Shown piece by piece: positions 13,850-24,146 of a stretch of 35,410 nucleotides of DNA (position 1 is the first letter of the stretch; the number at the start of each line of letters is the position of its first letter). The position numbers were made by a program, and so were the translations under genes. The notes beneath the pieces were generated by a model that saw nothing but the letters and a program-made list of their open reading frames with translations, did not search any database and was not told where the DNA came from. Source of the stretch: Nitrososphaerota archaeon (lineage in GTDB: Archaea > Thermoproteota > Nitrososphaeria > Nitrososphaerales > Gagatemarchaeaceae). The DNA lies in the NCBI GenBank assembly GCA_027886975.1, contig JAPCJK010000008.1:1-35410 (forward strand), written 5' to 3'.

Positions 13850-14585
13850 GACTGGCGAGGAACGATTGGACAGCGCCGGCCAAAGCCTCCGGTTTCTCCA
13901 GGGGAAGCATGTGCCCGGAGTCTTTCACGAAGTAGAGTTCTGAGCCAGTGATGTTGGTCTTCAGAAAGTGCGACCACTTCGGAGGAGTCATCCGGTCCTT
14001 GTCCCCGCAAGCGATCAGAGTCCTGGCGTCGATTCGACGCAGGTCCGCCCTGACGTCGAAGTTCTGGCATGCGAGGTAGTCGTTCAGAAAGACATCTAGG
14101 TTGGAGACCGAGAGGGCGACCCGGGCCTCCCTCCCCAGGCTGAGGTCGATAGAGTTGAAACTCCGCGGGGTTATTACTTGCTCTACGGCCTTGAGAGGCT
14201 GGCTGCGAAGGACGTCGAGTATCACAGGATCGACCCCTAACTTTGCCCCCGTGCTCACCAGGATTAGACCTCCCAAAGCGTCTGGGTGGGACAGGGCAAG
14301 CGTCATAGCCACTGCACCCCCCATAGAATGACCACAGACTACCGGCCTTCCGACTCCACGGTTGGCGATGAATTCGAACACTGCTTCTGAATAGTCTCCG
14401 ACAGTCTTGCAGGTTATCTCACCAGACGGATGTCCAGGGAGGTCAACTGCAAAGGCTACCGACTTTCCCGACAAATACTGCAACGTCCTCTTCCATAGCA
14501 GACTGTTCCCGCCAGCGCCGTGGACGAAGATAACGGGATGAGGCGCCTGGTGAGATATGAAACCGAGCAATCGGTCAGTAGGCAC
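13839..14585 (-). CDS. alpha/beta hydrolase
   Basis: VIFVHGAGGNSLLWKR, VVCGHSMGGAVAMTLAL (nucleophile elbow), DSGHMLPLEKPEAL (His). Start at GTG 14585; the longer ORF to 15116 is antisense to prpB. Confidence 0.9.
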   Translation of the reverse strand: MPTDRLLGFISHQAPHPVIFVHGAGGNSLLWKRTLQYLSGKSVAFAVDLPGHPSGEITCKTVGDYSEAVFEFIANRGVGRPVVCGHSMGGAVAMTLALSHPDALGGLILVSTGAKLGVDPVILDVLRSQPLKAVEQVITPRSFNSIDLSLGREARVALSVSNLDVFLNDYLACQNFDVRADLRRIDARTLIACGDKDRMTPPKWSHFLKTNITGSELYFVKDSGHMLPLEKPEALAGAVQSFLASLTP

Positions 14586-14664
14586 GACCGCAGAATTTAA
14601 TGATGATGGGAAGCTGTTTGGGGACAGGCATAAATCGGGTGGCGTGGGCGTGGCCAAGTCTGAC

Positions 14665-15555
14665 ATGGCCAAACAAGCTGCGGCGCTAAGGAAGTTGATA
14701 GCGGGAGAGAAGATTGTGGTTGCGCCGGGGGTCTTCAGTCCCGCGGTGGCGAAGCTCGCAGAGAAGCTGGGGTTCAGGGCATTGTACTTCTCCGGGGCCG
14801 GCTTCTCAAATCTCCTCGCCCTCCCGGACTTGGGAATCACTACCCTGACCGAGGTAGCGGGGGCCGCGCGGCAGGTCGCATCCAAGGTGAATGTCCCACT
14901 CATCGTAGACGCTGACACCGGGTTCGGGGAGGCCCTGAACGTCGCTCGGACCGTGGAAGAGATGAGGGCGGCGGGGGCCGCAGCCATCCACATCGAGGAC
15001 CAGATTTTGCCAAAGCGGTGCGGCCACCTAGATGGAAAGGAGCTGGTCGGAGCCGAGGAGATGGTAAAGAAACTGATCAGTGCGAGAGAAGCGGCAGGGA
15101 AGGAGCTATTGATCATCGCGCGGACCGACGCAAGGTCAGTGGAGGGAATAGATTCGGCCCTGGAGCGGGCCCTGGTCTATTCAAAGGCAGGTGCCGACAT
15201 GATCTTCCCTGAGGCACTGGAGAGTAGGGAAGAGTTCGCGGAGTTCAGAAGGAAGGTAAAACTCCCGCTTATTGCCAATATGACGGAGTTTGGAAAGACC
15301 CCCTACGTGACCGTCCAAGAGTTCGAGGACCTGGGGTACGATATTGTGATCTTCCCTGTCACTGCGTTCAGAGCCATGATGAACACGGTGAAGGAAACCC
15401 TGACCCGGCTGAAAGCCGAGGGGACGCAGAAGGGCATGCTTAGGTCGCTCATGCCGAGAGAGGAATTCTACGACTTGATTGACTACTATAGATTTGAAGA
15501 GGCTGACAAGAAAGCTATGGGGGCCGCTAAGCGCCTCCGACGGAACTCGACATGA
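14665..15555 (+). CDS. prpB: methylisocitrate lyase (isocitrate lyase/PEP mutase family)
   Basis: DADTGFGEALNVARTVEEMRAAGAAAIHIEDQILPKRCGHLDGKELV, PLIANMTEFGKTPYVTVQEF; PKRCGH and NMTEFGKTP match PrpB rather than PEP mutase. Confidence 0.88.
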   Translation: MAKQAAALRKLIAGEKIVVAPGVFSPAVAKLAEKLGFRALYFSGAGFSNLLALPDLGITTLTEVAGAARQVASKVNVPLIVDADTGFGEALNVARTVEEMRAAGAAAIHIEDQILPKRCGHLDGKELVGAEEMVKKLISAREAAGKELLIIARTDARSVEGIDSALERALVYSKAGADMIFPEALESREEFAEFRRKVKLPLIANMTEFGKTPYVTVQEFEDLGYDIVIFPVTAFRAMMNTVKETLTRLKAEGTQKGMLRSLMPREEFYDLIDYYRFEEADKKAMGAAKRLRRNST

Positions 15556-16673
15556 GCAACGTCCCCCAGCACCTAAGGGTGCCGAAAGGGCTCGCGGGAG
15601 TGTCCGTTACAGACACAAAGATCTCGACGAGCGAGGCCGACGGGACCCTGCTCTATCGAGGTTATGCCATTTCAGATTTGGCCGCCAACGCTGGCTTTGA
15701 GGAGACCGCGTTCCTGGTTCTCAACGGTTCATTCCCCGGGAAGGAGGAACTGGAGGCGTTCACTCAAGAGTTGCGGAAAAGGGCTCCGGTGCAGGACAAG
15801 GTCTTTGGAATCATGAGAGAGCTTGGTAAGACCGCTCACCCAATTGATGCGCTCAGAACAGCTGTCTCCTCACTCGGGAGCACTGACAGGGAGGAAACGA
15901 TTGATGGAAAGCAGTTCTCGTTGGAATCGAAGATGTCCGTGCTCGCAGCGAATTGTTACCGTGTCCCACGAGGCGAGCGACCAACTGAGCCAGACCATGA
16001 GCAGAAATTCTCGGACAACCTACTTCACATGCTTACCAAGAAGGAAAGGAGCGACTACGAGAGGTGGGTCTTCGAGAGGGTCTTGATATTTTACATGGAG
16101 CATGATATGAACGCGTCGACGTTTACCGTGAGGGTAGTGGCTTCAACATTGGCGGACCCCTACGCGGCAGCGACGGCAGGGCTTGCAGCCCTGAAGGGTC
16201 CCCTTCATGGTGGCGCCAACGAGGAGGCGATGAAGATGCTCCTCGAAATAGGAGAGCCCTCAAAGGCCGCGGGGTACGTAGAAAGAGCGCTTAGGGAGGG
16301 CAAGAAAGTGATAGGTTTTGGCCATAGAGTCTACAAGGATTTCGACCCGCGGGCAAGGCTGTGCAAAGAGTATCTCAAGGAGATTCTCGCCAAGCGCGGT
16401 GAGGACGACAGGCTGTACCGCCTTTGCGACGCGATAGAGAATGAAATGTGGGAAAGAAAGAGGATACCACCAAATCTCGACTACTACGCGGCCCCCATCT
16501 TCTATCTTCTCGGCATCGAGGTCCCACTCTACACCCCCATCTTTGCAGCAAGCAGGACGTTCGGATGGATGGCGCACTACAACGAACAGGTCGAGGATAA
16601 CAAGTTGATCAGGCCGGATGCCACATACGTGGGGCCCTCGGACCTGAAGTATGCTCCCGTCGAGCGAAGGTAG
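15552..16673 (+). CDS. prpC: citrate synthase / 2-methylcitrate synthase
   Basis: KGLAGVSVTDTKISTSEADGTLLYRGYAISDLAANAGFEETAFLVLNG..., GPLHGGANEEAM, GFGHRVYKDFDPRA. ATG overlaps the prpB stop. Confidence 0.9.
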   Translation: MSNVPQHLRVPKGLAGVSVTDTKISTSEADGTLLYRGYAISDLAANAGFEETAFLVLNGSFPGKEELEAFTQELRKRAPVQDKVFGIMRELGKTAHPIDALRTAVSSLGSTDREETIDGKQFSLESKMSVLAANCYRVPRGERPTEPDHEQKFSDNLLHMLTKKERSDYERWVFERVLIFYMEHDMNASTFTVRVVASTLADPYAAATAGLAALKGPLHGGANEEAMKMLLEIGEPSKAAGYVERALREGKKVIGFGHRVYKDFDPRARLCKEYLKEILAKRGEDDRLYRLCDAIENEMWERKRIPPNLDYYAAPIFYLLGIEVPLYTPIFAASRTFGWMAHYNEQVEDNKLIRPDATYVGPSDLKYAPVERR

Positions 16674-16676
16674 GCC

Positions 16677-17633
16677 CTACTTTTCGAGCCTCGCAGCAGC
16701 GGCTTCTACCGTCATTTTCCCAGCAAGAACCTGCCTTGCAAGCCTGTCTGCGCGAACGTCGGATGCCTGGGCGAACTTCCGCATGGCAGAGGCCCTCGCT
16801 GTCTCGACGATCATTCCTCTGATGCTCTTTAGTCTGAGCTCTTGGTTACCTTTAGTGAACCTTGAACGGATGGATTCGATGGCACCCTCGAGCTTGTCGA
16901 TCCCGTCCCCTGAGATGGCCGAGACCTTGAGGACGCTTGGGGTGCGTGAGCTCCCCCTGAAGAGTCCGAGAAGGCTTACAATCATTGTGTCTGCCCCAGC
17001 CAAGTCGGACTTGTTGACAACATAGACATCTCCTACTTCCATAAGCCCCGCCTTGGAGACCTGGATGTCGTCGCCCAGACCTGGCATGAGCACCACAAGG
17101 ACGGCGTGGGATACACCGACCACCTCGATGTCAGATTGCCCGATGCCAACGGTCTCCAGCAGTACCAGGTCAAACCCTGCAGCGTCCATCAGCTGAATAA
17201 CCTGCGAAGTTGCCCTCGACAAGCCTCCTGTCCAGCCCCTTGACGCCATACTTCTGATGTAGACGCCTTTGTCCGAGGAGTGTCCAGTCATCCTAATCCT
17301 GTCCCCGAGCAAGGCGCCCCCGGTGATCGGGCTGGTCGGGTCAACGGCGATTACGCCGACCTTCAGCCCTCTCCCACGAAAGGAGTCGATCAGCTTGTCA
17401 ACGAGTGTGCTCTTCCCAGTCCCAGGGGGACCGGTCACCCCTACGACGAAGGTCCTTCCCGTTGGTCTGAGAAGCCCCATGAGCTTTGAAGCGCGGGCCG
17501 GGTCGTTTTCCGCAAGGGAGATCCCTTTCGCCAGTGCGACCCTGTCCCCATTACGCAGGCGTGCGGCGAGCTGTGTGAGTCGCAATGCTCTGGGCGTCCC
17601 GTCCGTCGAGCCTTTCTTATGGGTTAGAGGCAT
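16677..17633 (-). CDS. meaB: MeaB-type mutase-associated GTPase
   Basis: GVTGPPGTGKSTLVDKLIDSFRGRGLKVGVIAVDPTSPITGGALLGDRIRM, VLLETVGIGQSDIEV, NKSD. Confidence 0.94.
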   Translation of the reverse strand: MPLTHKKGSTDGTPRALRLTQLAARLRNGDRVALAKGISLAENDPARASKLMGLLRPTGRTFVVGVTGPPGTGKSTLVDKLIDSFRGRGLKVGVIAVDPTSPITGGALLGDRIRMTGHSSDKGVYIRSMASRGWTGGLSRATSQVIQLMDAAGFDLVLLETVGIGQSDIEVVGVSHAVLVVLMPGLGDDIQVSKAGLMEVGDVYVVNKSDLAGADTMIVSLLGLFRGSSRTPSVLKVSAISGDGIDKLEGAIESIRSRFTKGNQELRLKSIRGMIVETARASAMRKFAQASDVRADRLARQVLAGKMTVEAAAARLEK

Positions 17634-17657: not shown

Positions 17658-19424
17658 GTGCCCAAGTTGCTTAGAGGGGGCCGTGATGCCTACTGGAATA
17701 GGAAAGCCCGGGAAGCGGTCGAAAGGCGGGCCAAGGCTGGGTCGCTCTACGATAAGAAAGCCGTGGACGACATAAAGAAAGGAGTGAAACAGTGGCACGA
17801 AGAAGTCTACAGAGGATGGACTGAGAAGTTCCCTGAGGCACGCCAGGAATTCCAGACTGCCACCGGGATCAAGGTGAAGCCGATCTACACACCCGCCGAC
17901 GTGGCAGATTCCAACTACTCCGACCAGGGATACCCAGGAGTCTTCCCGTATTCCAGGGGGGTACACCCGACCATGTATAGGGGGAGGCCTTGGACTATGA
18001 GGATGTTCTCAGGGTACGGGACGCCTGAGGATACCAACAAAAGGCTGAAGCTACTACTGGAGCATGGCGAAACTGGGCTGAGCGTCGCCTTCGATATGCC
18101 CACGCTCTACGGCTACGACTGCGACCATCCTCGGGCCCATGGAGAGGTGGGGAGATGCGGAGTCAACGTTTCCTCTATGAAGGACATGCAGGTGATTTTC
18201 GATGGGATCCCGCTCGAGAAAGTTAGCACGTCGATGACGATCAACGCCCCCGCCACAGTACTGACCTGCATGTATGCCGGGGTTGCCAAAAAGCAGGGAG
18301 TCCCCTTGGCAAGATTGAGGGGGACAGTCCAGGCGGACATGCTCAAAGAGTACATCGCCCAGAAGGAATGGGTCTACCCCCCAGAAGCGCACCTCAGGCT
18401 CGTGAGGGACCTGATGGTCTTCTGCACCAAGGAGATGCCCCGTTGGAACTACATCAGCATTAGCGGCTACCACATACGAGAAGCAGGCTCAAGCGCAGCC
18501 CAAGAGCTCGCCTTCACGCTTGCCGATGGGTTCGGCTATGTCGAGCTTGGGATCGAGGCAGGGCTGAAGGTAGAGCAGTTCGCACCGCGGCTCAGCTTCT
18601 TCTTCAACTCGACGATGGACTTCTTTGAGGAGATTGCCAAGTTCAGGGCAGCTCGCAGGGTCTGGGCCGAGGTTCTGAGCGAGAAGTACGGAGTGAAGGA
18701 CAAGAGGAGCCTGCTGATGAGGTTCCACACGCAGACCTCTGGGGCGTCCCTGACGTGGCAGCAGCCTCTCAACAACATAGTGAGGACTGCCATCGAGGCC
18801 CTTGCGGCGGTTCTTGGAGGGACGCAGTCCCTCCACACTAACTCCTACGACGAAGCTTGGGCCCTTCCTACTGAACAGGCCGTGGAAGTAGCCCTGAGGA
18901 CGCAGCAGATCATAGCGGAGGAGACCGGGGTGCCCAGCGTCATAGACCCGCTGGGGGGTTCGTACTACGTAGAGTGGCTTACTGAGCAGATGGAGGAGGA
19001 GGCCTACAAGTACTTCGACAGGATCGAGTCCGCCGGCGGGCTCCTGAAGGCAATCAAGACTGGATACCTTCAGAAGGAGATCGCAGAAAACTCCTACAGA
19101 CTTTCCAAACGGGTCGAAGAGGGAAAGGACTCGGTCGTCGGGGTCAACAAGTACTCGAAGCCAGAGAGGAAGCCCATAGAAACTCTGAAGATAGATTCGA
19201 GGGCTCAGAAGAGCCAGGTGAAGAGGCTCGCATCTGTAAGAGGGAAGAGGAACGGGGCAAAGGTGGGAACTGCGCTCGCGAAATTGGGGAGGGCCTTTGA
19301 AGACGAGGATGCGAACTCAATCTATCCCATGCTGGACGCGGTGATGCAGTACGCGACGCTCGGTGAGATCATTGATGTGGGTCGCAAGATCTTCGGGGTC
19401 TGGACCGAGCCGATGATACTCTGA
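17658..19424 (+). CDS. acyl-CoA mutase large subunit; sequence signature favours isobutyryl-CoA mutase over methylmalonyl-CoA mutase
   Basis: RPWTMRMFSGYGTPEDTN...GLSVAFDMPTLYGYDCDHPRAHGEVG...GTVQADMLKEYIAQKEWVYPP; Phe and Gln at the positions corresponding to Propionibacterium MCM Tyr89 and Arg207. Confidence 0.93.
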   Translation: MPKLLRGGRDAYWNRKAREAVERRAKAGSLYDKKAVDDIKKGVKQWHEEVYRGWTEKFPEARQEFQTATGIKVKPIYTPADVADSNYSDQGYPGVFPYSRGVHPTMYRGRPWTMRMFSGYGTPEDTNKRLKLLLEHGETGLSVAFDMPTLYGYDCDHPRAHGEVGRCGVNVSSMKDMQVIFDGIPLEKVSTSMTINAPATVLTCMYAGVAKKQGVPLARLRGTVQADMLKEYIAQKEWVYPPEAHLRLVRDLMVFCTKEMPRWNYISISGYHIREAGSSAAQELAFTLADGFGYVELGIEAGLKVEQFAPRLSFFFNSTMDFFEEIAKFRAARRVWAEVLSEKYGVKDKRSLLMRFHTQTSGASLTWQQPLNNIVRTAIEALAAVLGGTQSLHTNSYDEAWALPTEQAVEVALRTQQIIAEETGVPSVIDPLGGSYYVEWLTEQMEEEAYKYFDRIESAGGLLKAIKTGYLQKEIAENSYRLSKRVEEGKDSVVGVNKYSKPERKPIETLKIDSRAQKSQVKRLASVRGKRNGAKVGTALAKLGRAFEDEDANSIYPMLDAVMQYATLGEIIDVGRKIFGVWTEPMIL

Positions 19425-19519
19425 CGTAGCCAATAATCAGTCTTTGCCCAGCGCAGCCCGTCCTAGAAGCCAGGTAGCGGGTAAAGGTTAAGGCCACAGT
19501 CCCGCGCAGTCTGAATTAC

Positions 19520-19951
19520 ATGCCGAAACAGATTGCCAGGTCTGAAAGAAAGATTCGGGTGCTGGTCGCCAAGCCTGGGCTTGACGGGCACGACAGGGGA
19601 GCCTTGGTCCTCGCCAGGGCCTTCAGAGACGCAGGGATGGAGGTCATTTACAGCGGTCTCCTGCCATCCCCTGAACAGGTGGCGCAGATGGCCGTCGATG
19701 AGGACGTCGATGTGGTGGCGCTTTCCCTCCTAAACGGAGCGCATATGACCGCATTTCCCAAGGTGAAGCGTCTGCTTGAGAAGCGGGGAGGGGGTGACAT
19801 TGTGGTCGTTGGGGGCGGGATAATCCCCGAAGAGGACAAACCAAAGCTGATGAAACTGGGGATAACGGGATTGTTCGGTCCCGGGAGTTCGTTCGCTGAA
19901 GTAGTGCAACACGTAAGAGAGAGGGTCAGCAAGGAACGCTGGAAGCGATGA
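19520..19951 (+). CDS. cobalamin-binding small subunit of acyl-CoA mutase
   Basis: KIRVLVAKPGLDGHDRGALVLARAFRDAGMEVIYSGLLPSPEQ: DxHxxG B12 motif; SLLNGAH; GGGIIP. Confidence 0.95.
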   Translation: MPKQIARSERKIRVLVAKPGLDGHDRGALVLARAFRDAGMEVIYSGLLPSPEQVAQMAVDEDVDVVALSLLNGAHMTAFPKVKRLLEKRGGGDIVVVGGGIIPEEDKPKLMKLGITGLFGPGSSFAEVVQHVRERVSKERWKR

Positions 19952-19955
19952 AGAT

Positions 19956-21176
19956 ATGTTAGAACAGAACGAGTTCACAAAACTTTCGAAGATGAACTTC
20001 GACGTGTCAGAGGAGCAGGCCTTGGTCCTCGACCAAGTTGACAGGGTCTGCAAGGAGTTCAGGCCCATCGAGGACAAATTCTACCTAGATCACAAAGTGA
20101 ACGACCAAGTCAAACAGAGCTTCGGGAAGGCCCATCTGCTGGGCCTCCCAATTTCGAGGAAGTATGGGGACGGGCAAGGGGCGGACATGATGACCTACGC
20201 CCTGGCGATAGAGAGGATAGGAAGAGAGGGGACCGGGCCCAGGACGTTCTTTTCAGTTCACATGGCTCTGGGGGAGATGACGGTCCAGCATTGGGGAGAC
20301 GAGGAGCAGAAGCGGCGGATTCTTACCCCTGCCACCAGAGGGGACACTATTCTTGCGTTCGGGCTGACGGAGCCGAACGCCGGAAGCGACCCGACGGCCC
20401 TCACCACCTACTTTGAGGAAAAGGAAGGGATGTTTCTGGTCACTGGTCAGAAGATGTGGATCTCCCTCGGCTCGACGGCGAAGTACATAATCACCTTCGC
20501 TTATCCGAAGGGGAAGCGCGAGGGCATGTGCGCCTTCCTGGTTGACACCGAAAGCCCAGGGTTCAAGGCCGAGCTGATCCAGCACAAACTTGGACTCCCC
20601 ACGGCGGACACATCGACCCTGTACATGGAGAAAGTCGAGGTCCCCAAGGAAGATATGCTCGGGCCCAGGGGAAAGGGCATGTCCGTGGCGCTCTCGGGGC
20701 TCATGAACGGAAGGCTGAGTGTAGCGGCCGGGTGCGTCGGGGTCATGCGTGACTGCCTCGACGAAGCTGTCAGATACGCTGGGGTCAGGTTCCAACACGG
20801 CAAGCTGATTGGCAAGCATCAGCTCGTACAGAGGCACATAGGCCTCATCTCGACTAACTTAGAGGCGGCAAGGCTCCTCCTGCTGAACGCTGCATTCATC
20901 AAACAGAAGTATGAGGAGAACCCCAAGAACAACGAGCTAAGGGAGGCTGCCGACTTGGCGATTACCAAGGCGAAGTATTTCGCAGCGAACGCATCCTTCG
21001 ATGCTGCCAACAGAGCCGTGCAGGTGTTCGGAGCCAATGGCTATTCCTTCGAGAACAGGCCGGCGAGACACCTGGTAGACACCAGGGTAACGATGATATA
21101 CGAAGGAGCAAACGAGATAATGGAACAAAAGATAGCCCTCGGCTCCCTTGGGAAGGGCTTCGAAGCCTATTCCTGA
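19956..21176 (+). CDS. acyl-CoA dehydrogenase
   Basis: FGLTEPNAGSDPTALTTYFE, VTGQKMWISLGSTAKYIITFA, VQVFGANGYSFENRPARHLVDTRVTMIYEGANEIMEQKIA. Confidence 0.95.
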   Translation: MLEQNEFTKLSKMNFDVSEEQALVLDQVDRVCKEFRPIEDKFYLDHKVNDQVKQSFGKAHLLGLPISRKYGDGQGADMMTYALAIERIGREGTGPRTFFSVHMALGEMTVQHWGDEEQKRRILTPATRGDTILAFGLTEPNAGSDPTALTTYFEEKEGMFLVTGQKMWISLGSTAKYIITFAYPKGKREGMCAFLVDTESPGFKAELIQHKLGLPTADTSTLYMEKVEVPKEDMLGPRGKGMSVALSGLMNGRLSVAAGCVGVMRDCLDEAVRYAGVRFQHGKLIGKHQLVQRHIGLISTNLEAARLLLLNAAFIKQKYEENPKNNELREAADLAITKAKYFAANASFDAANRAVQVFGANGYSFENRPARHLVDTRVTMIYEGANEIMEQKIALGSLGKGFEAYS

Positions 21177-21188
21177 CGAGGACATCTG

Positions 21189-22682
21189 GTGGCTCGGTTG
21201 ACCCGAAGGCCTGTTCTGGCAGTTCTATTGTTGGGAGTCATCATCATAGCATCACTCTCATTCTACGAGATATACTACGCGAAGCCCCCTTCATGCCAAG
21301 TCAATCCGGCTGGGAGTGTGATAAAGAGCCAGACTGAGAAGGTCCAATTCGGCGCCGTGACCGAGTACAATCTTCCGGGGCCGAACAGGTGGCCCAACGC
21401 AGTCACATCTGCCCCTGACGGCTCAGTCTGGTTCGCGGAAGAGGGGGTCCCGGGAACCGCCCACTTCTTCCCGGTCAACGGGACGGTCGTCGAGTACGCA
21501 TGGCCGGGCCATAGTGCCCCGAAGCTCCCGTACTGCTCCCCCACTGCTAGTTCCTCCGGGATCGTATTGTGGAATGGGCGAGCCTGGACCTCAGACCAAT
21601 ACGGCAATTCGCTGGTCGGGATCAGCCCCATAGGGGGAACCCCTGTGTTTGTCAATACCACTGGGACGGCTAATTCCCCGTACTGGCTCGCAGTAGGTCC
21701 CGAGGGATCCCTGTGGTTCACTTCGCTCGACACTCCTGCCAAACTTGGGAGGATCGCCCCTGATATGACGCTGACGATTGTCAATCTGGCCGGGCTGGGC
21801 CACGACGAACCGTTTCAACTAGACTTCGTTAATTCATCGCTTGCCTATCTATCGACCCTTAACGAGTTCCCCAACTCGACAACTCACGCCTGTACCTGCA
21901 ACGGTCACATCTATACGTTCGATCCTTCGTCGCCTTCGACGACAATCACACCCGCTCGTGTGGGCGGAGGTTACGAACTTGTGCTTCCAACCAGCGTTCG
22001 TTACTCAAGCGGGAGTCTTTGGGTGACGCAACATGGTGCGTCGAGTATTGTTCGGTATGACTTGATTGCGAAATCTTGGACGAAGTATCCCACGTCCACC
22101 GTGCCATGGTCGGGGACGACGCTTCCGCTCGTCATCGAAGGGAGCCAAGGGAAGATCTGGTTCAACGAGCACTACGCCAACAAGATTTCACTGCTGGACC
22201 CGGGGGCAGGCACTCTGACGGAGTACAGCGAGTCGAACCCGCCTGCGTCGAACTACACTGACATACAAAATGACCTCTCCATTGCGGCCACTGGCGGGGG
22301 TCTCTGGTTCACGTCCCTGTCGGGCAACTACCTTGGGTTCGTAAGTTCTAGCTACGACCCAGGGGTTCACGTCAGCGTTTCGGGTACGAATGCAGCCGCC
22401 ATCCCTCCTGGTGGGAGCGCTTCATTCGAGTTGAATGTCACCGGTAACTGGTCCGGTCCCGTGAAGGTTACCGCGTCGGACTCTGAGGATTCTTCTTCGA
22501 AACCGAATTTGATTCAGATCATCCCCAGTGTTTCCGCAATTCCAGTCGGGGGATCCCCCTACAGCCTGGGATTGAGGTTGGTCGCTGACCAGAAGACCCA
22601 AGCTGGAAGTTACACGGTCGGTGTCACTCTGACGAATGGGGGGGTCCAACAGACCGCATACTTCTTCATTGTCGTCAAGTAG
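21189..22682 (+). CDS. membrane-anchored extracellular beta-propeller protein (Vgb/streptogramin-lyase-like)
   Basis: N-terminal TM then repeated 'GSVWFAEEG', 'GSLWFTSLD', 'GKIWFNEHYANKISLLDP', 'GGLWFTSLSGNYLGFV' propeller blades; C-terminal beta-rich domain. Confidence 0.82.
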   Translation: MARLTRRPVLAVLLLGVIIIASLSFYEIYYAKPPSCQVNPAGSVIKSQTEKVQFGAVTEYNLPGPNRWPNAVTSAPDGSVWFAEEGVPGTAHFFPVNGTVVEYAWPGHSAPKLPYCSPTASSSGIVLWNGRAWTSDQYGNSLVGISPIGGTPVFVNTTGTANSPYWLAVGPEGSLWFTSLDTPAKLGRIAPDMTLTIVNLAGLGHDEPFQLDFVNSSLAYLSTLNEFPNSTTHACTCNGHIYTFDPSSPSTTITPARVGGGYELVLPTSVRYSSGSLWVTQHGASSIVRYDLIAKSWTKYPTSTVPWSGTTLPLVIEGSQGKIWFNEHYANKISLLDPGAGTLTEYSESNPPASNYTDIQNDLSIAATGGGLWFTSLSGNYLGFVSSSYDPGVHVSVSGTNAAAIPPGGSASFELNVTGNWSGPVKVTASDSEDSSSKPNLIQIIPSVSAIPVGGSPYSLGLRLVADQKTQAGSYTVGVTLTNGGVQQTAYFFIVVK

Positions 22683-22706: not shown

Positions 22707-24146
22707 CTACTGTGGGGGCGACTCTTGCTCGTGACGATGGGACAACATGTGGTGGTATTCTTCAACTTCGTAGACGTTGTACAGGGCCCTCTGGACCACT
22801 TCGTTAAGGGCCGGGTGAATGTAAATCGAGCGCCTTAGGTCTCCGGGACCTTGGTCTCCGGTGTACATGGCGTTTATGAGTTCCTGGATCAGGATTGAGG
22901 CGTAAGGGCCTGCGATGTGGGCCCCCACTATTCGCTCGGTCTGTTTTTCGAGAATCACCTTGACGAAATAGTCTTTGGCGGCCATCGCCTCCCCCTTCGC
23001 GGTATCTTCGTATTTGTAGAAACCAACAAGGACGCCTTCCTTGCCAAACTTCTCAACTGCATCTCTCTCCTTCATCCCCACCCCGGCGGCTTCTGGGTAG
23101 GTGAAGACCGCGTGAGGTACAGCGTGGTAGTCGACTTTGACCTTTTGCTTCAGGACAGCGTTGTTGTACACGACCTCGGATTCGTAGTTGGCCACATGTT
23201 TGAACATGAACCTCCCGTCGGCGTCCCCCATTGCCCATACCCCAGGCTGTGTTGTCTGGAGATATTCGTCCACTTTGATCCAACCGTGATCGTCAGTCTC
23301 GACACCTCCTCTCTCGGGATGCAGAATCCCGCTTGTGGGACCTCGGCCAGTCGCGACTAAGATTTCCTCTGCCGCAACCTCCTCCGTCTTTCCGGACTTC
23401 CTGTCTGAAGCCAACAGCCTCTTCAGACCCCGCGAAGTTCCAGCCTCTTGCACCTCCTTGTTGGTGAGAATCGTCATGTGGCGACCGAGCTCTCTCCTGA
23501 GCACATCTGACACCTCTGGCTCTTCTTCGGGGATGAACTGCGGGTTGCGGCCCACGATTGTAACGCGAGAACCCATCGCCGCAAGGAAGTGGCCCAGCTC
23601 CGCCGCGATGTACCCCCCGCCTATGACCGCCACGCTCTTGGGGAGCTTCTTGAGCTTCAGAACTTCGTCGCTCGTCAGGAAACCAGCCTCTGCCAAGCCT
23701 TTGATCGGCGGTATGTTGGTTTGAGAGCCTATGCATAGAAAAATCAACTTCGACGTCATAGTCTCGTCACCCACCTTCAATGTGTAGGGTGCGACGAACT
23801 CAGCGGTCGCGTGAAAGTAGTCGATGTTCTCAGAAGATGAAAGCCCTCGCCTTATGGAGTCGATGTCCTTGTCGATGAGGGACCTCATCCTCGTCATTAT
23901 TTGGGCGAAGTTGATGGACGCTATCTCTGTCGCGATGCCGAACTCACGAGCCTTTTCGGTGAGTCTCACAAGCTCAGCAGGATAGAGGAGGATTTTGGAG
24001 GGGATGCACCCCCGCGTCAGACAAATACCTCCGGGTTCGTCCTTATCGATGACTGCGACCTTCATCTTCGGGTTTTCCCTGATCATTGGGTCGACGATGT
24101 TCATCGCCGAACCTGTACCAATGACGATCAGGTCGTAACTCTTCGT
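22707..24146 (-). CDS. dihydrolipoamide dehydrogenase / mercuric-reductase-like FAD disulfide oxidoreductase
   Basis: SYDLIVIGTGSAMNIVDPMI...GGICLTRGCIPSKILLYPAEL; VAVIGGGYIAAELGHFLAAMGSRVTIVGR; IYIHPALNEVV. ORF track starts at internal Met 24104, within the FAD-binding GxGxA strand; extended to an in-frame ACG. Confidence 0.92.
   Translation of the reverse strand, partial: TKSYDLIVIGTGSAMNIVDPMIRENPKMKVAVIDKDEPGGICLTRGCIPSKILLYPAELVRLTEKAREFGIATEIASINFAQIMTRMRSLIDKDIDSIRRGLSSSENIDYFHATAEFVAPYTLKVGDETMTSKLIFLCIGSQTNIPPIKGLAEAGFLTSDEVLKLKKLPKSVAVIGGGYIAAELGHFLAAMGSRVTIVGRNPQFIPEEEPEVSDVLRRELGRHMTILTNKEVQEAGTSRGLKRLLASDRKSGKTEEVAAEEILVATGRGPTSGILHPERGGVETDDHGWIKVDEYLQTTQPGVWAMGDADGRFMFKHVANYESEVVYNNAVLKQKVKVDYHAVPHAVFTYPEAAGVGMKERDAVEKFGKEGVLVGFYKYEDTAKGEAMAAKDYFVKVILEKQTERIVGAHIAGPYASILIQELINAMYTGDQGPGDLRRSIYIHPALNEVVQRALYNVYEVEEYHHMLSHRHEQESPPQ

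Follow-up and report, generated by a model that had tools for sequence, protein, structure and literature searches.

A candidate two-subunit isobutyryl-CoA mutase, linked to prpB and prpC-like genes, in a relative of the ammonia-oxidising archaea

A 35,410-nucleotide stretch of a Nitrososphaerota archaeon genome (GenBank GCA_027886975.1, contig JAPCJK010000008.1, positions 1 to 35,410), referred to here as the window, contains the genes for the large and small subunits of an adenosylcobalamin (AdoCbl)-dependent acyl-CoA mutase. A sequence-only reading of this DNA had held that automatic annotation would call the enzyme methylmalonyl-CoA mutase (MCM), which is essentially right, comparable plasmid genes being named 'methylmalonyl-CoA mutase family protein'. 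It had predicted instead the conversion of isobutyryl-CoA to n-butyryl-CoA. Is the enzyme an MCM with an altered pocket? Or, is it an isobutyryl-CoA mutase (ICM) or a mutase for some other acyl-CoA? The host is an archaeon of soil or groundwater related to the ammonia oxidisers. The nearest named relatives of its mutase (72–87% identity) come from metagenome-assembled genomes (MAGs) assigned to 'Thaumarchaeota' or Nitrososphaerales, including Candidatus Gagatemarchaeum, which belongs to the non-ammonia-oxidising group I.1c. The source genome is itself a fragmented MAG of 2.05 Mb, 94.8% complete and in 151 contigs, and the window is part of contig 130.

We conclude that the two genes probably encode a two-subunit AdoCbl-dependent ICM of the IcmA/IcmB type, served by a MeaB chaperone. 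The large subunit (17658..19424, + strand) has 588 aa from a GTG start; it matches PF01642 at 731 bits and TIGR00641 above the cut-off, and scores 630.9 against the full-length MCM equivalog NF006944, below the cut-off of 876. The small subunit (19520..19951, + strand; 143 aa, PF02310) retains the cobalamin motif DxHxxG as DGHDRG, and both open reading frames (ORFs) lie where the sequence-only reading had placed them. The top PDB match of the large subunit is the large subunit of 2-hydroxyisobutyryl-CoA mutase (HCM; 4r3u), and those of the small subunit are the HCM small subunit (4r3u_C) and 2yxb, a 'Coenzyme B12-dependent mutase'. Streptomyces IcmA/IcmB also consists of two subunits, of ~566 and 136 aa, and its Phe80/Gln198 is the same residue pair as that described below.

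The assignment turns on three active-site positions. In a MAFFT alignment, gap-free through the motifs and with the P. shermanii MCM numbering checked on several other residues, Phe117 (codon 18006..18008, + strand) occupies the position of MCM Tyr89, Gln235 (18360..18362, + strand) that of Arg207 and Ala144 (18087..18089, + strand) that of Ala116. The alignment places Phe/Gln, and not Tyr/Arg, at the two decisive sites, as the sequence-only reading had claimed. Its pairing of motifs had the residues right, and only the gap in 'RMF-SGY' was needless, as RMFSGY aligns directly with RQYAGF. The equivalents of MCM Thr195, Gln197, Tyr243, His244, Glu247 and Gln330 are unchanged, the catalytic Tyr243/His244 being Tyr271-His272 (18468..18473, + strand). 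An MCM has Tyr89 and Arg207, which bind the free carboxylate, and the ethylmalonyl-CoA mutase (ECM)/MeaA type keeps this pair, so that Ruegeria MeaA reads Y/A/R at 89/116/207 where the window mutase reads F/A/Q. An HCM has Ile and Asp at 89 and 116; the retention of Ala at 116 had been taken to speak against this enzyme, correctly, since 4r3u reads Ile/Asp/Gln. An ICM has Phe and Gln at 89 and 207 and no Asp at 116, which is what we find here.

These sites fall into discrete sets. Among 112 relatives, 57 read FAQ, 48 YAR, four IDQ and two VDQ; the remaining member, FAR, is a deposited crystal mutant of MCM (Y89F). F/A/Q is kept in all 57 members of the Phe/Gln group, at roughly 51–87% identity to the window mutase, and the residues are therefore not a product of chance or sequencing error. 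Y/A/R is likewise kept in all 48 natural Tyr/Arg enzymes. In a site-by-site comparison of 25 sequences, MCM position 122 is Leu in every Gln207 enzyme and His or Gln in the MCM/ECM types.

How does the window mutase compare with characterised enzymes? The CHARACTERISED enzymes used in the PDB comparison were HCM (4r3u) and IcmF, the fused ICM of Cupriavidus metallidurans (4xc6). IcmF is Phe/Ala/Gln at all three sites and near-identical in local sequence: its motifs RMFAGEG, LSTAFD and RGTVQADILKEDQGQ correspond to RMFSGYG, LSVAFD and RGTVQADMLKEYIAQ in the window. The alignment was made with a chimeric query (the window MeaB core joined to the N-terminal half of the mutase) against the PDB sequences, because the mutase part of IcmF ranks under MCM chains. 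Its Gln segment is weak alone (7.5 bits), with the register fixed by the RGTVQAD-LKE motif. In IcmF these residues are Phe598 and Gln742, which we take to be its substrate-specificity residues, in a numbering that discounts 20 residues of the deposited chain as a tag, an assumption made from the chain length. IcmF also has MeaB-like G-protein and B12 domain partners, but it is a single chain of ~1,093 residues that includes the G-protein, whereas the window encodes the two subunits and MeaB in three separate genes, and IcmF is less similar overall to the window mutase than HCM is. Among solved structures, HCM (HcmA/HcmB) lies nearest for both subunits (47.7% identity) and shares Gln207, but has Ile/Asp where the window has Phe/Ala.

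A tree was built with IQ-TREE (LG+F+R5, 1000 ultrafast bootstraps, 528 columns, midpoint rooting), from which a divergent Paraburkholderia sequence reading IVG was excluded. All Gln207 enzymes form one clade (ultrafast bootstrap 89), within which the FAQ group of the window joins other Nitrososphaeria families and Deinococcus (97), and the haloarchaeal FAQ enzymes group with HCM (94). Identity between the clade of the window and the other FAQ groups is 51–58%. The Tyr/Arg mutases of the Nitrososphaeria, including those of ammonia oxidisers, are mostly in one separate group (91); a few other copies are placed elsewhere, still outside the Gln207 clade. The tree thus groups the enzyme with the ICM/HCM clade, apart from the MCMs of its own class. 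The MCMs of the class (e.g. L069, L089; ~50–52% identity) share the fold, the cofactor and the catalytic residues of the window mutase, but differ in their Tyr/Arg carboxylate clamp, in their co-occurrence with an epimerase and in their clade. These separate clades make the window enzyme an old paralogue rather than a form that arose recently from the local MCM. Both mutase types are present in several genomes, and in four from the same family (panel members G163, G285, G290 and G282) a Tyr/Arg mutase exists separately; the tree together with such genomes rules out that the Phe/Gln enzyme arose by recent mutation of a copy of the lineage's MCM.

One of these genomes, G282, has an unusual arrangement. 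In its short locus L079, the gene after the Phe/Gln large subunit is the dehydrogenase, with no small subunit, and a closely related small subunit adjoins the Tyr/Arg mutase in L092. Perhaps this small subunit is shared or has been relocated.

The distribution of partner enzymes was surveyed in 39 genomes of the class (the panel), 14 with a Tyr/Arg mutase and 25 with a Phe/Gln one only; these genomes are related, and the counts are not independent events. Methylmalonyl-CoA epimerase (TIGR03081 above the cut-off) is present in 14/14 of the former and 0/25 of the latter. It was not found in the source genome, where the best TIGR03081 score is 21.6 against a cut-off of 114.95 and the window mutase is the only PF01642 protein. 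Methylisocitrate lyase, PrpB (TIGR02317 above the cut-off), shows nearly the opposite pattern, with 22/25 Phe/Gln-only genomes and 4/14 Tyr/Arg genomes.

The neighbouring genes fit this distribution. Upstream lie prpB (14557..15555, + strand; TIGR02317 397.7 bits, cut-off 354.4), a prpC-like gene for 2-methylcitrate/citrate synthase (15552..16673, + strand; TIGR01800 400.1 bits, slightly under the cut-off of 421.3) and a divergent MeaB-type GTPase chaperone (16677..17633, - strand; TIGR00750 288.6 bits, above the cut-off). Being just under its curated cut-off, the PrpC-like protein could be a citrate synthase instead. Downstream is an acyl-CoA dehydrogenase, a candidate butyryl-CoA dehydrogenase (19956..21176, + strand, with homologues suggesting a start at 19992). 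It is assigned at family level, its PDB neighbours include short-chain/butyryl-CoA dehydrogenases and the Glu of its YEG(T/A) motif is kept. Across 35 related loci the mutase is accompanied by the small subunit in 33, meaB in 31, prpC in 30, prpB in 27 and, downstream, the dehydrogenase in 27. Of the five loci that lack prpC, four lie on short stretches (3–12 kb), and L019 has 8 kb of upstream sequence and no prpC. The prp linkage is kept in the distant loci L031 (63% identical), L032 and L033. From the PrpB distribution and this gene order, these organisms probably dispose of propionyl-CoA via the methylcitrate cycle.

What would such an enzyme do? The MeaB GTPase from the adjoining gene would help to load AdoCbl, homolysis of which would give a 5'-deoxyadenosyl radical able to abstract hydrogen from a methyl group of isobutyryl-CoA; migration of the thioester group would then yield n-butyryl-CoA. 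With Phe117 and Gln235 in place of the Tyr and Arg that grip the free carboxylate of methylmalonyl-CoA, we propose that an uncharged aliphatic branch is accepted. We infer that isobutyryl-CoA would come from valine via a 2-oxoacid dehydrogenase complex, and that the adjacent dehydrogenase would convert butyryl-CoA to crotonyl-CoA for beta-oxidation. Propionyl-CoA from isoleucine and odd chains would exit via the neighbouring PrpC/PrpB methylcitrate genes, not via MCM. A lipA-E1-E2-E3-lipB cluster on contig 65 encodes a 2-oxoacid dehydrogenase complex that could supply isobutyryl-CoA, and 3-hydroxybutyryl-CoA dehydrogenase and enoyl-CoA hydratases are found together on contig 77. The earlier prediction of an isobutyryl-CoA to n-butyryl-CoA reaction is thus supported by the residues of IcmF, the tree and the genome context, and is still a prediction.

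The Phe/Gln pair would also be compatible with other aliphatic substrates. The alternative that survives best is a Phe/Gln mutase that acts mainly on 2-methylbutyryl-CoA/valeryl-CoA or isovaleryl-CoA/pivalyl-CoA and only secondarily on isobutyryl-CoA. IcmF also uses pivalyl- and isovaleryl-CoA (PMC10481361). The clade is old, sharing 51–58% identity with the other FAQ groups, and the prpB/prpC linkage fits a route ending at propionyl-CoA. However, isoleucine can be degraded to propionyl-CoA with no mutase at all, and IcmF, which mainly interconverts isobutyryl- and butyryl-CoA, has the same Phe and Gln as the window mutase. We therefore regard a different main substrate as unlikely, while giving it more weight than any other alternative.

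Could isobutyryl-CoA leave by another route? The classical valine route requires 3-hydroxyisobutyryl-CoA hydrolase (HIBCH), 3-hydroxyisobutyrate dehydrogenase (HIBADH) and methylmalonate-semialdehyde dehydrogenase (MMSDH). HIBADH was above the cut-off in none of the panel genomes (142 against 291.6 bits in the source genome). No full-length HIBCH match was found, the ECH_2 matches being partial and resembling generic enoyl-CoA hydratases. The sole MMSDH-like protein in the source genome (445.3, cut-off 448.5; contig 70) is probably IolA, because its gene adjoins inositol genes, namely iolC (324.2 bits, cut-off 300) and an acetolactate-synthase/IolD-like gene. Isobutyryl-CoA is therefore left with no obvious other exit. 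The inositol-type group formed by these three genes spans 2855-9771 of L142, and a similar layout is seen in L145.

This same finding bears on the direction of the reaction. ICM reactions are reversible, and an anaplerotic version would convert butyryl-CoA to isobutyryl-CoA, from which the dehydrogenase and a valine-type route would lead to propionyl-CoA for the methylcitrate cycle, again in keeping with the linked prpB/prpC genes. We have downgraded this to improbable: HIBCH and HIBADH are not above their thresholds, the MMSDH-like gene lies beside inositol genes, and isocitrate lyase and malate synthase A are already present as an adjacent, complete glyoxylate shunt pair on contig 73 (L151, 2554-5468).

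Several points weigh against an ICM. The closest characterised enzyme overall is HCM, not an ICM, and Streptomyces IcmA, the comparison made by the sequence-only reading, is absent from the alignment and the tree. Some relatives (L024-L026, L031-L033) have no dehydrogenase gene next to the mutase, and the 2-oxoacid dehydrogenase of contig 65 is nearest to pyruvate dehydrogenase models, all under the cut-off. The genome also contains a birA-carboxyltransferase-biotin carboxylase-biotin carboxyl carrier protein cluster, an acyl-CoA carboxylase that could make methylmalonyl-CoA, so that part of the MCM pathway could be present. Finally, absences from this single incomplete genome are soft evidence, and the pattern across the 39 genomes is stronger.

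Is it then an MCM after all, with an unusual carboxylate pocket? The generic TIGR00641 domain annotation, the carboxylase of propionyl-CoA/acetyl-CoA type and the MCM relatives elsewhere in the class would suit this. However, the Tyr89 and Arg207 equivalents are lost in every member of the Phe/Gln group, none of the 25 FAQ-only genomes has the epimerase and the four same-family genomes named above hold a separate Tyr/Arg mutase alongside the Phe/Gln one. On residues, epimerase and clade we reject this identity as highly improbable. A 2-hydroxyisobutyryl-CoA/3-hydroxybutyryl-CoA mutase, suggested by 4r3u as top PDB match for both subunits and by the shared larger clade, is rejected as equally improbable, the Ile/Asp of HCM being Phe/Ala here.

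The specificity signature of an ICM is already known; what is new is its distribution among archaea, its linkage to prpB/prpC and the danger of the paralogue being counted as MCM in surveys. A 2010 article knew ICM from bacteria only (PMC2847961), and an 'isobutyryl-CoA mutase subunit B' in Cuniculiplasma carries the name by annotation only (PMC7285479). In the literature looked through, no biochemical report of an archaeal ICM was found, only annotation. The Gagatemarchaeaceae genome paper describes branched-chain amino-acid transport and degradation genes and the absence of the 3-hydroxypropionate/4-hydroxybutyrate (HP/HB) cycle, with no mutase named in the main text (PMC10640624), and a survey of Nitrososphaeria scored 'mut, methylmalonyl-CoA mutase' beside HP/HB markers (PMC10833072). 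We put forward, with evenly balanced confidence, a wider proposal: in non-ammonia-oxidising Nitrososphaeria a B12-dependent ICM and the methylcitrate cycle would be the main outlet for branched-chain carbon, replacing the methylmalonyl-CoA pathway of the ammonia oxidisers, and 'methylmalonyl-CoA mutase' calls among HP/HB markers would partly count this enzyme. If the ICM assignment holds, a widespread uncultured soil and groundwater lineage would gain a defined B12-dependent catabolism of amino acids or short-chain acids, a route for burning valine through an enzyme normally labelled MCM. The presence of one AdoCbl mutase but no epimerase in most of these genomes would be explained, and a 'mut' call in Nitrososphaeria would be no evidence for methylmalonyl-CoA chemistry or the HP/HB cycle.

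Further genes of the source genome were noted. The carboxyltransferase of the birA cluster was considered as the 3-methylcrotonyl-CoA carboxylase of leucine degradation and proved to be a birA-linked acyl-CoA carboxylase. In the window, the ORF at 21189-22682 (+ strand) has partial likeness to the virginiamycin B lyase (Vgb) family PF24684 and is found downstream of the dehydrogenase in 17/35 loci. A dihydrolipoyl dehydrogenase ORF (22707-24104, - strand) lacks the first ~14 residues of the family profile, so the gene may be truncated or its start wrongly placed; such a gene is near the mutase in just 3/35 related loci.

Other mutases were met among the relatives, on plasmids. The haloarchaeal plasmid loci L112, L123 and L124 encode Phe/Ala/Gln enzymes under the 'family protein' annotation quoted above, and small subunit, MeaB, acyl-CoA dehydrogenase and MaoC genes lie near the mutase in L112. 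A Halomarina plasmid (L117, 5001-6701) encodes a mutase with the HCM residues Ile/Asp/Gln, and an archaeal mutase of the 2-hydroxyisobutyryl-CoA type may therefore exist. The VDQ members of the Gln207 clade are from Sinorhizobium (L116, 8001-9683) and Shinella (L125, 8001-9683) plasmids, where they adjoin enoyl-CoA hydratase and AMP-binding ligase genes; Val/Asp is neither the HCM (Ile/Asp) nor the ICM pattern, and possibly indicates another substrate. The Paraburkholderia plasmid mutase (L122, 4926-6590) is very divergent: the three sites read Ile/Val/Gly and the LKE motif is altered. Its neighbours are genes for a small subunit of its own, MeaB, two acyl-CoA dehydrogenases and an enoyl-CoA hydratase.
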